From: Saccharothrix sp. HUAS TT1
Lineage (GTDB): Bacteria; Actinomycetota; Actinomycetes; Mycobacteriales; Pseudonocardiaceae
DNA: 64,000 bases
Direction: 5' to 3'
Assembly: GCF_040744945.1 (NCBI RefSeq)
Contig: NZ_CP160453.1
Location: forward strand, 2,790,001-2,854,000
Part shown: positions 18,084 through 23,976 of the stretch, one piece after another
How the letters are laid out: each line of letters starts with the position of its first letter
How positions within the stretch are numbered: position 1 is the stretch's first letter
The notes under the pieces: generated by a model
What the model was told of the DNA's origin: nothing
The model's input: the letters and a program-made list of their open reading frames with translations, nothing else
Database searches by the model: none
Program-made: the position numbers and the translations under genes

Positions 18084-18496
18084 TTTGCGCCACCGGGCGG
18101 AACGTCCACTCGCGATCGGTCCACTCGCGATCCGCCCGCTCCGGGCACCGCCGGTCACCATTCCGGGACGGGCCGTGTCCGCACCGCGCCGGCCGGTGGC
18201 GGATTCCACGTGGGACGGACGACGCGGGGTCGCCTTATTGCGGCTCCAGGCCCGGTTCCGGGCTGTTAACGCGTTCGCCCATTCGAGTGGTAACGCCACC
18301 TGAAACGCCCCTTCGGCGCTGGTCAGCGAAGCTCAAGATCACCTTTGTTGTAGCTCTTAGTAAATTCCCCCCTCATAGGTGCGTCCATCTGTGTAAGGCT
18401 TGAGCCGTTCGGAAGGCCGGGGGGTCTCCGAAATGCCGGTGCAGACACGGAGAAGACGGCCCCGAAAGGGGTCTTGTTGTAGGGGAGGGCAACGTC
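18084..18496. promoter_or_regulatory. gene-free region upstream of the GGPYKP peptide
   Basis: 413 bp with no supported gene. The 3' half contains a relatively AT-rich patch (about 18335-18370) that may hold the peptide promoter; no confident -35/-10 pair is assigned. A CCCC-GAAA-GGGG tetraloop hairpin (18460-18471) sits in the predicted 5' [12 protein letters not shown] about 8 bp before ATG 18497 is a strong ribosome binding site, unlike the leaderless genes around it. Confidence 0.5.
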
Positions 18497-18712
18497 ATGA
18501 CCCAGACTGACCCGAAGCTGGTCGCCGAGATCGACGCCATCGAGGACGAGGTCATCGGGAACGAGGCCGAGGTCGTGGTCGCGGTGGGCGGCGGTGACGA
18601 CCCCAACGGGGGTCCGTACAAGCCGGTCGAGGACGACCCGGAGGTCCAGCCGCTGATCAAGCCGATGGGCGGCCCGTACAAGCCGGTGAGCGACCCCGTC
18701 GAGGCGAAGTAG
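18497..18712 (+). CDS. small acidic peptide with two GGPYKPV motifs (putative precursor or protease substrate)
   Basis: 71 aa. Residues 1-30 are an acidic amphipathic stretch (IDAIEDEVIGNEAEVVVAV) ending in Gly-Gly-Gly (31-33), like a leader with a double-Gly boundary. The C-terminal part repeats GGPYKPV at residues 38-44 and 58-64, separated by acidic and Pro-rich linkers; no Cys, few Ser/Thr. No signal peptide or membrane span. The strong ribosome binding site and a hairpin right after the gene suggest high expression as a monocistronic message. The next gene is a CHAT protease. I do not recognise this peptide. It could be a RiPP-like precursor, a substrate or an inhibitor of the protease. 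Confidence 0.75.
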   Translation: MTQTDPKLVAEIDAIEDEVIGNEAEVVVAVGGGDDPNGGPYKPVEDDPEVQPLIKPMGGPYKPVSDPVEAK

Positions 18713-18746
18713 GTCACCGGAGGGTGACCGTGCGGTGACAACGCGG

Positions 18747-18780
18747 CGAATGCTGCCAGCCCACTGGCTGGCAGCATTCG
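18747..18780 (+). terminator. strong hairpin between peptide gene and CHAT gene
   Basis: A perfect 15-bp stem (CGAATGCTGCCAGCC / GGCTGGCAGCATTCG) with a 4-nt loop, ending 20 bp before the CHAT start. There is no long T-tract, so it may terminate partially, giving much more peptide mRNA than protease mRNA. Confidence 0.75.
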
Positions 18781-18800
18781 CCCGTCGCTTGTGATCTCAT

Positions 18801-21419
18801 ATGACCGTGCCTGCGAAAACTCCTGGTCGGGGACCGGATCACGCGGTCGAGTCGGCCCGGCGGTTGCACCGCAGCGCGTTGGAGGCGGCCACCGCCGACC
18901 GCCACCCGGAGGCCATCCGGCAGCTGCGCAGGGGCCTGGCGCTGCTGGAGGAACCGGGCACCGACCCGCAGGACCGGCTCGCCGTCCGCAGCCGCATCCT
19001 CATCACGCTGGCGTTCTGCCTGGCCGAGACGGCGACCGTGGCCGCGGGCCTCACCCAGCTCGACGGCGTCGACCGCGAGCTGAACGGCGTCCGCGACGAG
19101 GCGCTGAAGGCGCACCTGTCCACGCTGGTCAACCTGAACCGGGCCGCGCTGCTGTGCCGGGTCGGCCGGATCGACGAGGGCATCGCCCAGCTGGACCGCG
19201 AGATCGAGCGCAGCGAGCGGCGGCTGGCCGTGCGCGCCGACCCGGAGGCCGCCGACCTGCTGGTGACCGCGCTGTCCAACCGGGGCAACGCGCACGGCGA
19301 GGTGCACCGGCACGACAAGGCCGCCCGCGACCTCGACCGGGCCGCCGCCCTCGCCGCCGCGCACGACCTGCCGCTGCGCGCCGCCATCGCCAAGCACGCG
19401 CTGGGCAACGCGGTGCAGCGGGCGGGCGACATCCCGGACGCGCTGCGGCACTACCACGAGGCGAACCGGGCGTTCCAGGAACTCGAACCGGGCCTGCTGC
19501 TGCGCCTGCGCATCGACCAGGCCGAGGCGATGATCAGCGTCGGGCTGGCCGACGAGGCGGGCCGGCTGCTGGACGAGGTGCTGCCGGAGCTGCGCCGCCA
19601 GCGCATCGGGCAGGACGTCGCCGAGGCCGAGCTGTTCCGCGCCGCGGCGGCGCTGCAGGACGGCGACCTCCCGCTGGCCCGGCGGATGGCGGCCTCGGCG
19701 CAGCGCAAGCTGCTCGGCCGCGGCAGCCCGGCGTGGGCGGCGGTGGCCGGGCTGATCACGCTGCGGGCGGACGCGGTGCGCGCGTTGGACTCCCGGCGCC
19801 CCGGCGCGAAGGTGACCACGCGGGCGATCGACCTGTCCGAGCTGCTGTCCCGGCTGAAGCTGGTCGACCAGGCCGCGTTCGCGCTGGTGCTGGCGGCCCG
19901 GCTGGAGATCCGCCGGGGCGACCCGGACCGGGGCGCGGAGCTGCTGCGCAGCGTGCCGAAGTCGCGCCGGATCGCGCCGATCGACCACCGGATGCTGCTG
20001 CGGCTGTGCCGGGCCGAGCTGGCGCTGGCCCGCGGCAACGAGCGGGTGGCGCTGGCGCAGGCCAAGGCCGGGCTGGCCGAGCTGGGCCGGATGCGGGACC
20101 GGCTGGGCGGGCTGGAACTGGTGTCCGGCACCGCCGTGCACGGCCGTGAGCTGGGTGAGCTGGCCGTGCGGCTGGTGCTGCGGGGCCGCGACTCGGCGGC
20201 CAACGCCAAGCGGCTGTTCACCTGGCTGGAGCGCACCCGCGCGCAGCTGTACCGGTACGACCCGGCGGAGTCCACTGTGGACTCCGAGCTGGGCGAGCGG
20301 ATCGCCGAGGTGCGCAGGCTCAGCCGGGCCCTGCTGCGCGCCCGGCTGGACGGGCTGCCGACCGACGAGCTGGAGGTGCGGCTCAAGGCGAGCCAGCGCG
20401 CCGCCACCCGGATGGGCTGGAGCGCCAGCCCGTGGGGCACGCCGCGCCCGGTCGTCGCCCCGGACGAGGTGCTGGCCAGGCTGGACGGCCGGGCCATGGT
20501 GAGCTTCGCGGTGTCCGACGACGAGCTGATCGCCGTCGTGCTGGCGGGCGACCGGGTGCGGATGGTGCGGCTCGGGTCGGCCGCCGCGGTCACCGAGGGC
20601 GCGCGCCGGCTGCACGCCGACCTCAACGCGCTCGCGCCGGACCACCTGCCGCCGCCGCTGGCGGAGGTCATCTCGGGGTCGGCGCGCCGCGAGGCGGAGA
20701 AGCTGGACCGGCTGCTGCTCGGCCCGCTGGCGCCGATGATCGGCGACCGGGCGCTGGTCGTGGTGCCGACCGGCGCGCTGTACGTGGTGCCGTGGGGCGT
20801 GCTGCCGACGTGCGCGAACCGGCCGACGACGGCCGTGCCGTCCGCCACCGCGTGGGTGTCGGCGATCCGCGAGGAGCGGGAGGCCGCCAACGGGGTGCTG
20901 CTGGTGCGCGGACCCGGGTTGCAGGCCGCGCAGGGCGAGATCGACCGGCTCGCGGGCTACCACGGCGACGCGAAGCTGCTCGGCGTGACCGAGGCGAAGG
21001 TCGGCGCGGTGCTGGAGGCGCTGGACGGCGTGGAGCTGGCGCACATCGCCGCGCACGGCGAGCACGAGCCGGAGAACGCGCTGTTCTCCCGGCTGGAGCT
21101 GGTGGACGGCGCGCTGTTCGCGCACGAGGTCGGCCGGGTGCGCCGGCCGCCGCACCAGGTCGTGCTGGCCGCGTGCGAGCTGGCGCTGAACCGGGTGCGG
21201 CCCGGCGACGAGCCGCTGGGGTTCGCCGGGGCCCTGCTGGCGGGCGGCGCCCGGACGGTGATCGCCGCTTCCAGCCGGGTCGGCGACGAGCCGGCGGCGG
21301 CGGCGATGGCCGACTTCCACCGCATCCTCGCGGGCGGCGCGTCGCCGGCGGTGGCGCTGGCCGAGGCGATCGCGGTGGACCCGATGCGCCGTCCGTTCGT
21401 GTGCCTCGGGTCGGGATAG
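18801..21419 (+). CDS. TPR-CHAT domain protein (putative caspase-like cysteine protease)
   Basis: 872 aa. Residues ~15-440 are helical TPR-like repeats (for example IRQLRRGLALLEEP, LVNLNRAALLCRVGRIDEGIAQLD, LRHYHEANRAFQEL). The C-terminal ~250 residues are a CHAT domain: AHIAAHGEHEPENALFSRLEL carries the catalytic His752, and VVLAACELAL the catalytic Cys792, so both residues of the caspase-like dyad are present. No signal peptide, so cytoplasmic. No Shine-Dalgarno is visible before ATG 18801. CHAT proteases generally cut a specific partner; the 71-aa peptide just upstream is the obvious candidate. The dyad assignment is from motif, the pairing is inference. Confidence 0.9.
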   Translation: MTVPAKTPGRGPDHAVESARRLHRSALEAATADRHPEAIRQLRRGLALLEEPGTDPQDRLAVRSRILITLAFCLAETATVAAGLTQLDGVDRELNGVRDEALKAHLSTLVNLNRAALLCRVGRIDEGIAQLDREIERSERRLAVRADPEAADLLVTALSNRGNAHGEVHRHDKAARDLDRAAALAAAHDLPLRAAIAKHALGNAVQRAGDIPDALRHYHEANRAFQELEPGLLLRLRIDQAEAMISVGLADEAGRLLDEVLPELRRQRIGQDVAEAELFRAAAALQDGDLPLARRMAASAQRKLLGRGSPAWAAVAGLITLRADAVRALDSRRPGAKVTTRAIDLSELLSRLKLVDQAAFALVLAARLEIRRGDPDRGAELLRSVPKSRRIAPIDHRMLLRLCRAELALARGNERVALAQAKAGLAELGRMRDRLGGLELVSGTAVHGRELGELAVRLVLRGRDSAANAKRLFTWLERTRAQLYRYDPAESTVDSELGERIAEVRRLSRALLRARLDGLPTDELEVRLKASQRAATRMGWSASPWGTPRPVVAPDEVLARLDGRAMVSFAVSDDELIAVVLAGDRVRMVRLGSAAAVTEGARRLHADLNALAPDHLPPPLAEVISGSARREAEKLDRLLLGPLAPMIGDRALVVVPTGALYVVPWGVLPTCANRPTTAVPSATAWVSAIREEREAANGVLLVRGPGLQAAQGEIDRLAGYHGDAKLLGVTEAKVGAVLEALDGVELAHIAAHGEHEPENALFSRLELVDGALFAHEVGRVRRPPHQVVLAACELALNRVRPGDEPLGFAGALLAGGARTVIAASSRVGDEPAAAAMADFHRILAGGASPAVALAEAIAVDPMRRPFVCLGSG

Positions 21420-21510: not shown

Positions 21511-23976
21511 ATGCGCTCGTTGCTGCTCACGGTCCTGCTGCTGGCCACGATGACCACACCCGCGTCCCCCTCGCCCGCCGCGGGCCGGGCGCACGAGCCG
21601 GGCAACGGCCCGGAGCGCAACCAGGTCGCCGCCGTCGACCCGGCGCCGAGCACCGCCGCCCCGGGCTACAACTGGCCCGAGGGCAACCCCGGCTACCCGC
21701 GCCGCACCCGGCTGCGGGTCCACCCCGAGGACCGGGCCGACCGGTCGACCAAGCTCGGGCTCGCGCCGTACCACTCGCTCGCGCCGCGCCTGAACGACCT
21801 CCAGCGCCGCGGCGACCGGGTGTCGGTCGAGGTGATCGGCCAGTCGACGGCGGGCCGCGACCTGTACCTGATCACGCTCACCGCGCCGGAGAGCCCCGCG
21901 GAGACCCGCAGGCAGGACGCCTGGCGCCGGAAGATCGAGGACGACCCGGCCGCCGCGGCTCGGGACTTCTTCCTGCGCGGCAACTACAAGGCGCCCGTGT
22001 GGGTCAACGCCAACATCCACGGCGACGAGTGGGAGGGCACCGACGGCGCGCTGCGGGTCGTCGAAGACCTCGCCTCCGCGACCGACCCGGCCACCCTGGA
22101 GTTCCTGCGCCGGCACCGGGTGCACGTGAACGTCACCGCCAACCCGGACGGGCGGGTGGCCGGCACCAGGGCGAACGCGGCCGGGTTCGACCTGAACCGG
22201 GACTTCGTCACGTCCTCGCAGCCGGAGTCGCGGGCCATGCGGGACGTGGTGCGGCGGATCCAGCCGCTGCTGGTGCTGGACGAGCACGGGTACGTGGACG
22301 GCACGCTGATCGAGCCGACCACGCCGCCGCACGGCCAGAACTACGACTTCGACCTCTACCTCGGGCACGGCTACGCGGCCGGGTTGCGCATGGAGGCCGC
22401 GGTCAAGGCGCTCGGCCACCCCGAGGCGGCCTCGCCGAGCATCCCCTTCCGCGACCACCCGCCGGGCGTGTGGGACGGGTGGGCGCCGATCTACACCGCG
22501 CAGTACTCGATGTACCACGGCGCGGTGGCCTTCACGGTCGAGGTCCCCCTGCGGGTGAACCGGGGCGAGTACACGACCCAGCCGGAGTCGGAGCTGCGCC
22601 GCCGTTCGGCGATCAACACCGACGTCGTGGCGGCGACGATCCGCAGCGCCCTGGAGTACGCGCGGGAGAACCGGCGCTCGATGGTGGACAACCAGATCGA
22701 GGTGTTCCGCCGCGGCCTGGCGGGCGAGCCGCAGCGGGTGCTGCCGGACGGCTTCGTGCCGGGCTTCGGCCCCGAGGACCGCTACACCACGGAGTTCCCG
22801 CGCGCCTACGTCGTGCCGGTGGGCGCCGGGCAGCGCTCCGGGCGGGCGGCGGCGCGGCTGGTCGACCACCTGGTCGCGCACGACGTCCGGGTGAAGCGGG
22901 CCGACCGGGCGTTCACGGCGGGCGGGCGGGCGTACCCGGCGGGGTCGTACGTGGTGGACATGCGCCAGCCGAAGCGGGCGCTGGCGAACGTGATGCTGGA
23001 GGCCGGGCGGGACCTCTCGGACCGCGTCGACGTCATGTACGACATCAGCGGGTGGAGCCACCGGCTGCTGTGGGGCGCCTCGGTGGACGTCGTGCGGGAC
23101 GGGCCGCTGGACGTGCGCGGGCGCGAGGTCCTGGCCGCGTCGCCGACGGGTTCGCTGCCGGAGAGCGGCGACCTGGCGCTGGCGCTGACCGACGGCGAGG
23201 ACGTGGCGGCGGTGAACGACCTGCTCGGCCGGGGCGTCGAGCTGCGCAGGCAGGACGACGGCACGATCGTGGCGCCCGCGTCGGCGCGCTCGGCGGCGCG
23301 GGAGGTGTCGGACCGGCACGGGGTGGCGTTCACGCCCGCCGGTCCGGGCGGCGCGCCGCTGCGGCGCCCGGTGGTGGCGGGCGCGGTGGCGGCGGACGAG
23401 CTGAAGGCGTTGCGGGACATGGGCTTCGACGTGCGGCCGGTGTCGACGGCGGTGCTGGACGGCGGGTTCGACCTGACCGGGGTGGACGTGCTGCTGGTGT
23501 CGTCGGGGCTGCGGTACGACCAGTTGGGCGCCCCGGCCAGGGCGGCGGTGGACGAGTTCCTGACCCGCGGCGGCGTGGTGACCCGCGGCGCCACCGGCGT
23601 GCGGTTCAACGCCGACGCCGGGGTGCTGCCGGTGCGGGCGGTCGCGGGTCGGGAGGACGCGAACGGCGTCGTGTCGGTGGTGGACGGGGCGGGCGGCGTC
23701 GACCACTCGTTCGTGTACGCGCCGCACTGGTTCACCGACCTCGGGCCGGGGGTGGGCGCGCGGCAGCGGTACCAGGACCTGGTCGCGGGCCACTGGGCGT
23801 CGCGCGCCGACGGGTCGGGGGGACAGGAGGAGGCGGCGGGCCAGGCGGCGGTGGTGGCGGGCACGTCGCCGCGCGGCGCCAGGGCGGTGCTGTTCGGCAC
23901 CGAACCGCTGTTCCGCGACCACCCGAAGGGCCTGTACCGGCAGGTGGCCGACGCCATCTACCGCACCGCGGGGTGA
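21511..23976 (+). CDS. secreted M14-family zinc carboxypeptidase
   Basis: 821 aa with a Sec signal peptide (RSLLLTVLLLATMTTPASPSPA, cleavage near residue 22-26). The zinc site is His170-x-x-Glu173 (NANIHGDEWEG) and His259 (LDEHGY); the catalytic Glu is probably in AFTVEVPL. After the ~350-residue peptidase domain the protein continues with a long C-terminal region including a GATase-like segment (VDVLLVSSGLRYDQLGAPARAAVDEFLTRGG). It likely trims extracellular peptides. GGGGGGC lies upstream of the ATG as ribosome binding site. Same strand as the CHAT gene, 91 bp downstream, but a joint role is not shown. Confidence 0.9.
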   Translation: MRSLLLTVLLLATMTTPASPSPAAGRAHEPGNGPERNQVAAVDPAPSTAAPGYNWPEGNPGYPRRTRLRVHPEDRADRSTKLGLAPYHSLAPRLNDLQRRGDRVSVEVIGQSTAGRDLYLITLTAPESPAETRRQDAWRRKIEDDPAAAARDFFLRGNYKAPVWVNANIHGDEWEGTDGALRVVEDLASATDPATLEFLRRHRVHVNVTANPDGRVAGTRANAAGFDLNRDFVTSSQPESRAMRDVVRRIQPLLVLDEHGYVDGTLIEPTTPPHGQNYDFDLYLGHGYAAGLRMEAAVKALGHPEAASPSIPFRDHPPGVWDGWAPIYTAQYSMYHGAVAFTVEVPLRVNRGEYTTQPESELRRRSAINTDVVAATIRSALEYARENRRSMVDNQIEVFRRGLAGEPQRVLPDGFVPGFGPEDRYTTEFPRAYVVPVGAGQRSGRAAARLVDHLVAHDVRVKRADRAFTAGGRAYPAGSYVVDMRQPKRALANVMLEAGRDLSDRVDVMYDISGWSHRLLWGASVDVVRDGPLDVRGREVLAASPTGSLPESGDLALALTDGEDVAAVNDLLGRGVELRRQDDGTIVAPASARSAAREVSDRHGVAFTPAGPGGAPLRRPVVAGAVAADELKALRDMGFDVRPVSTAVLDGGFDLTGVDVLLVSSGLRYDQLGAPARAAVDEFLTRGGVVTRGATGVRFNADAGVLPVRAVAGREDANGVVSVVDGAGGVDHSFVYAPHWFTDLGPGVGARQRYQDLVAGHWASRADGSGGQEEAAGQAAVVAGTSPRGARAVLFGTEPLFRDHPKGLYRQVADAIYRTAG

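Follow-up and report, generated by a model that had tools for sequence, protein, structure and literature searches.

Two adjoining genes on the forward strand of Saccharothrix sp. HUAS TT1, one for a small acidic repeat peptide and one for a TPR-CHAT protease, are the subject of this analysis. They lie in a 64,000-nt stretch (positions 2,790,001 to 2,854,000 of NZ_CP160453.1), hereafter the window, whose numbering is used throughout. The principal features of the pair are:

18497..18712, + strand: gene for the 71-aa acidic repeat peptide (ATG start, from reading of the open reading frame)
18608..18628, + strand: repeat copy 1, GGPYKPV, residues 38-44 (from the sequence)
18668..18688, + strand: repeat copy 2, GGPYKPV, residues 58-64 (from the sequence)
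18801..21419, + strand: gene for the TPR-CHAT protease, 872 aa (open reading frame, Pfam CHAT and the predicted fold of a close relative, L036)
21054..21056, + strand: codon of His752, predicted catalytic (alignment)
21174..21176, + strand: codon of Cys792, predicted catalytic (alignment)

The N-terminal half of the peptide is acidic and closes with GGG at residues 31-33, and the two GGPYKPV copies stand 20 residues apart; its N-terminal TDPKLVAEIDAIEDE is conserved, and it matches no family in Pfam or NCBIfam. The protease contains a Pfam CHAT domain (PF12770, E=3.4e-27, 96.1 bits against a cut-off of 24); TPR models match it below their cut-offs, and its NCBIfam matches are weak, the Csx29 model scoring 19.8 bits where 300 are required. 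The His-Cys dyad is retained in 101 of 102 aligned protease rows, that of the window among them (six rows shorter than 750 aa were excluded). In the sole exception, the CHAT homologue L082, the catalytic His and Cys are replaced by R and Y. These results bear out a first-pass annotation, made from the letters of the window alone, that had described both the peptide in these terms and a TPR-CHAT protein with His752 and Cys792 intact.

All 25 genus genomes have a CHAT orthologue (68-90% identity), and in every one the peptide adjoins it (22 by homology, 3 by reading the upstream DNA); L053-L055 have a diverged peptide at the same place (GGPYSTHS, GGPYTSYS and DGPYKPHS). The pairing, for which absence of the peptide beside the CHAT genes of relatives had been named beforehand as a refuting outcome, survives at 25/25 genus loci and at 23 of 53 loci outside the genus. 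The ratio of nonsynonymous to synonymous substitution rates in the peptide is <1 in 8/8 close, ungapped, hand-chosen pairs (range 0.23-0.71), and the protease evolves more slowly than the peptide. Queried against 5.8 billion proteins, the window peptide gives 20 matches including itself, the 19 others at 49-79% identity, and a profile built from nine diverse peptides retrieves 46 proteins at E<=1. Named relatives come from Saccharothrix, Actinosynnema, Umezawaea and one Streptomycetaceae metagenome-assembled genome, and those bearing protein names are 'hypothetical' apart from one UniRef entry. The UniRef name of that entry, P0018, starts 'Antitoxin protein of toxin-antitoxin sy'.

The peptide-linked rows split into 39 of a repeat class and 18 of a Cys class, and the units of the former follow the pattern xGP-4567-8-9-P. 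The GGP[YF] set comprises 29 peptides with 80 copies, 1-6 per peptide. Over positions 4-8, identity is 0.86 for copies of one peptide, a value as high as which 0/500 shuffles gave, and 0.47 for copies of different peptides; the search pattern itself fixes positions 1-4. Since an earlier pattern-based statistic fixed some of the positions that it counted, we used instead a version anchored on any GP (126 units, 38 peptides; L119, with a unit lacking GP, is excluded). Within/between identity is then 0.76/0.35, 0.72/0.27, 0.70/0.26 and 0.69/0.14 at positions 4-7, and 0.39/0.18 and 0.43/0.19 at positions 8-9; the copies of one peptide are thus alike at positions 4-7, which vary from lineage to lineage. 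Position 7 is uniform across copies in 26/26 multi-copy GGP[YF] peptides, while the residue itself varies among peptides (V, T, A, G, M, L, H or Y); about ten of these 26 are close relatives with T. Orthologous copies, matched by eye through their spacers, switched code together: the window's pair (V,V) lines up with T copies 1 and 2 of L031, and the outermost copies of L047, with M, line up with the outermost copies of L048, with L. Synonymous codon differences between copies number 259 of 591, against 291 expected if the copies were independent; because this is near the independent level, most copies are old and, it seems, kept alike in amino-acid sequence. Recent tandem duplication as the sole cause of identical copies is disfavoured overall on the same count, though it may apply to single peptides. 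The code fits multiple sites read by one changing pocket, for which the adjoining protease would be the obvious candidate, and the sequences suggest a private lock-and-key pairing of peptide and protease.

We surveyed the gene upstream of CHAT at 101 loci besides the window, of which 100 are distinct (L105 duplicates L055); L052 and L081, where the CHAT match is absent, and L086-L101, repeats of genus loci, were excluded. A small peptide precedes CHAT at 56 of the 100, a ~155-aa protein matching CarboxypepD_reg below its cut-off at 29 and a subtilase (recognized by its similarity to a single C-terminal piece) at 8; at 7, none of these was recognized. Upstream matches to two sigma-factor probes occur at 29/29 loci of the 155-aa type, 3/56 of the peptide type and 0/8 of the subtilase type; sigma genes unlike the probes would escape, and many loci outside the genus are covered by 1.4-2.9 kb upstream. 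The same two probes matched 0/24 other genus loci over ~6-10 kb upstream, and at the window it is gatB, not a sigma gene as in an ECF (extracytoplasmic function) sigma/CHAT operon, that precedes the peptide gene. Whole sigma open reading frames match Sigma70_r2 above cut-off in 10/10 cases (eight sigma-type and two peptide loci) and the sigma70-ECF model in 7/7 scanned, generic matches rather than hits to an ECF54 model; an 85-aa piece from the C terminus matched no sigma family in Pfam. The 53 loci outside the genus, 13 from a family search and 40 hand-picked among the matches listed, are biased to the best CHAT matches and divide into 23 of peptide, 22 of sigma and 8 of subtilase type. Across the family, genus included, a CHAT match at E<=1e-60 is found in 135/249 genomes; a class-level search, scoring three candidates per genome, gives 2/296 at E<=1e-110 (the genome of the window and another from its family), so members outside the family may exist.

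In a protease tree of 101 sequences (quick method, midpoint root), all 57 peptide-linked proteases, including that of the window, form a single clade with a Shimodaira-Hasegawa-like approximate likelihood ratio test (SH-aLRT) value of 98. On that root the clade is nested among the ECF-sigma/CarboxypepD_reg-like/CHAT operons, and outside it the long, degenerate branch of L082 comes nearest, followed by sigma types. With one peptide-linked clade and sigma types as its neighbours, the simplest account is a single origin of the peptide partner, which would have replaced the sigma/155-aa arrangement. The CHATs preceded by a subtilase-like (S8) gene (L120, L135, L139, L143, L146, L151, L152 and L154) form their own clade, SH-aLRT 100. 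At L058, L060 and L062, possible transitional loci, a sigma gene lies ~0.5-2.5 kb upstream of CHAT near a Cys-type peptide; Sigma70_r2 was verified for the sigma genes of L060 and L062.

The 18 Cys-class peptides (L056-L063, L065, L109, L116, L121, L122, L137, L138, L140, L144 and L147) lack coded repeats, and many are His-rich, with ends such as ...HEHTHENGELSPLCSGNGCVQTPPKP, ...CAGGCPQSPPP and ...CCGPPIHY; their motifs are LCSGNGCVQ, CAGGCxQ and CCGPP, and they are possibly metal- or redox-linked. A profile search with this class retrieves 52 proteins at E<=0.1, those named being in Saccharothrix, Actinosynnema and Amycolatopsis; nearly all are 'hypothetical', one JGI record being called 3-dehydroquinate synthase class II.

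Three further features bear on expression:

18381..18402, + strand: conserved upstream element GCGTCCATCTGTGTAAGGCTTG, ~95 nt before the peptide start (alignments of relatives)
18482..18489, + strand: Shine-Dalgarno-like GGGGAGGG of the peptide gene (from the sequence; similar in relatives)
18745..18782, + strand: intercistronic hairpin with a perfect 17-bp stem and 4-nt loop (z -7.7 for the intergenic stretch)

Compared with mononucleotide shuffles, the gap between peptide and protease genes folds far more stably at 50 of the 54 peptide loci that could be tested, the window included and three loci <40 nt dropped (median z -4.0), and perfect stems of at least 9 bp occur in 17 of the 54 against 2/570 shuffled stretches. 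Loci of the 155-aa type, as a control, reach z<-2 in 1/23 testable stretches (median -0.28) and have such stems in 0/29; the control is unmatched in length, with 6/29 stretches too short to test, 9/23 of only 46-50 nt and several long ones that include the CHAT start. No Shine-Dalgarno sequence is evident ahead of the protease ATG, and this, together with the hairpin, suggests that the peptide would be made in excess of the protease. The peptide gene had been called highly expressed; the Shine-Dalgarno-like site is there, and the expression level had been deduced from it. The 22-nt upstream element, a putative promoter or leader element, has one site in its own genome at <=3 mismatches, is kept across the genus and is partly common to the Cys class; a conserved RNA fold of the leader found no support, RNAalifold giving only -5.0 on the aligned upstream region. 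A shared element of this kind could reflect plain co-expression, as would be expected if the peptide were a regulator or scaffold that acts elsewhere than on CHAT and is merely co-regulated with it. Against this stand the single peptide-linked protease clade, whose neighbouring clades have other partners, and a code that, in most peptides, shifts in every copy at once; we find such a role improbable.

The nine neighbouring genes that we read around the pair encode LysE, ACT, GatC, GatA, GatB, M14, GSDH, hydrolase and DoxX proteins. The peptide gene comes straight after gatB, and gatA and gatB lie immediately upstream at 24/24 other genus loci; outside the genus gatB is upstream at 6 of 17 loci checked (L102, L103, L104, L108, L109 and L116), L109 and L116 carrying an unrelated-looking Cys peptide. 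Because of this fixed core position in 24/24 genus loci, and because PADLOC matched no family for either peptide or protease, a phage-defence island was set aside as the main interpretation. Directly downstream of CHAT lies:

21511-23976: M14 zinc carboxypeptidase

A gene of this kind is near CHAT at 16/24 other genus loci, so it is probably not part of the module. The statement that no enzyme for ribosomally synthesized and post-translationally modified peptides (RiPPs) and no transporter lies near holds for enzymes, no modifying enzyme being among the nine neighbours, but 5 kb upstream there is a gene for a LysE-type translocator, so the part on transporters is not strictly correct. These data bear on the idea that the peptide gives rise to a modified or exported signal (a RiPP or a multi-copy pheromone) that CHAT matures and/or the TPR part senses. 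The highest 19-residue hydropathy of the peptide is 0.79, leaving no hydrophobic signal stretch; a RiPP enzyme was not among the nine neighbours read; and the motifs have no single modifiable residue in common across lineages. A known RiPP class was rejected as the main explanation on the lack of a class-defining modification enzyme among those neighbours, and a signal precursor in general is retained as a minor, rather improbable rival.

For structure we ran the AlphaFold2 monomer model on two read-through peptide-protease pairs, with shallow alignments. The protease fold was good and, judged from the close relative L036, is predicted to be separase/Craspase-like; the best structural relatives are separases, separase-securin complexes included. 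The TPR part resembles Rap/RRNPP receptors, though no better than generic TPR proteins do. The peptide is probably intrinsically disordered, given its low AlphaFold2 confidence, and the active-site loops, left unordered by AlphaFold2, suggest that the protease may have a latent state. Securin-like control, with the peptide as a pseudosubstrate inhibitor and/or chaperone whose removal frees the protease for another target, draws on these structural relatives and on a peptide that is acidic, unordered in AlphaFold2, faster evolving and encoded just before the protease. A stoichiometric inhibitor, however, needs no multiple copies with one private code; neither a target nor a degradation signal was identified, and AlphaFold2 did not place the peptide in the two read-through pairs. 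We regard this control as doubtful, if worth keeping in view.

We favour, at a probability of about 50%, the reading that the peptide is a disordered partner recognized via its repeats and best taken as a multi-site substrate of CHAT. The two-gene module would make an acidic, intrinsically disordered small protein in excess, and the TPR-CHAT protease encoded beside it would bind its repeated xGP-code motif; a signal would switch the protease on, which would then cut at or beside each copy, yielding several equal fragments per precursor or inactivation at several sites. In this the suggestion that the peptide is a substrate or inhibitor is partly supported, the repeat pattern favouring a specific recognition partner. 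Several observations weigh against the multi-site substrate. Pairing does not depend on coded repeats, since the 18 Cys-class rows pair without them; 3/29 GGP[YF] peptides have a single copy; and L117, outside that set, has five GPRNT copies with D, G, S, S and S at position 7. In the AlphaFold2 runs the motifs remained undocked (pLDDT, the predicted local distance difference test, ~24-32), although such runs can miss contacts. Synonymous saturation is uneven (L038 2/15, L040 0/6, L053 0/4), and as some peptides show few or no synonymous differences, homogenization may account for part of the copy identity; a third partner could also read the code in place of the protease. A narrower proposal, to which we give little credence, has the caspase-like protease of each lineage co-evolving with the multi-copy motif and its cleavage freeing short lineage-specific self-recognition or developmental peptides, comparable to a mating-factor precursor that stays in the cytosol and is matched with a dedicated processing protease and TPR receptor.

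To our knowledge, few bacterial CHAT proteases have a known natural substrate. The loci described here offer dozens of natural pairings of protease and partner in which the recognition code is explicit and has diverged and controls are built in, so that a specificity rule for CHAT becomes directly testable. They also suggest a route by which a protease linked to sigma factors acquired a different partner, present what may be a bacterial counterpart of separase-securin, and may provide orthogonal protease-tag pairs.

Among known systems, Craspase (Csx29 TPR-CHAT, Csx30 and CASP-sigma) differs in having the 565-aa Csx30 as partner instead of a 71-aa repeat peptide, and in its CASP-sigma, for which no sigma gene was found at the window locus; neither Cas7-11 (gRAMP) nor Csx30 is among the nine neighbours of this pair, CRISPR arrays not having been searched. 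CHAT-gasdermin systems differ as well: the partner here is 71 aa without a Pfam match, and no gasdermin is among the nine neighbours read. Rap/RRNPP receptors have a similar TPR part able to bind short peptides, but they are not proteases, and the peptides that they bind are secreted by means of a signal sequence. Separase-securin belongs to eukaryotic chromosome separation, whereas tandem coded motifs belong to the bacterial peptide, and the likeness lies in the predicted fold alone. A review, PMC8999054, places ECF54 sigma factors in a context of carboxypeptidase, subtilase and CHAT genes. The neighbouring protease clades resemble that context, standing in ECF sigma, CarboxypepD_reg-like and CHAT operons (29 loci) or beside a subtilase (8), whereas sigma probes match only 3/56 peptide loci. 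The open-access literature gave no match for GGPYKP and no CHAT-linked, multi-copy, lineage-coded repeat peptide. Dedicated partners of CHAT proteases were already known, and the multi-copy lineage-coded peptide is a new kind of partner.
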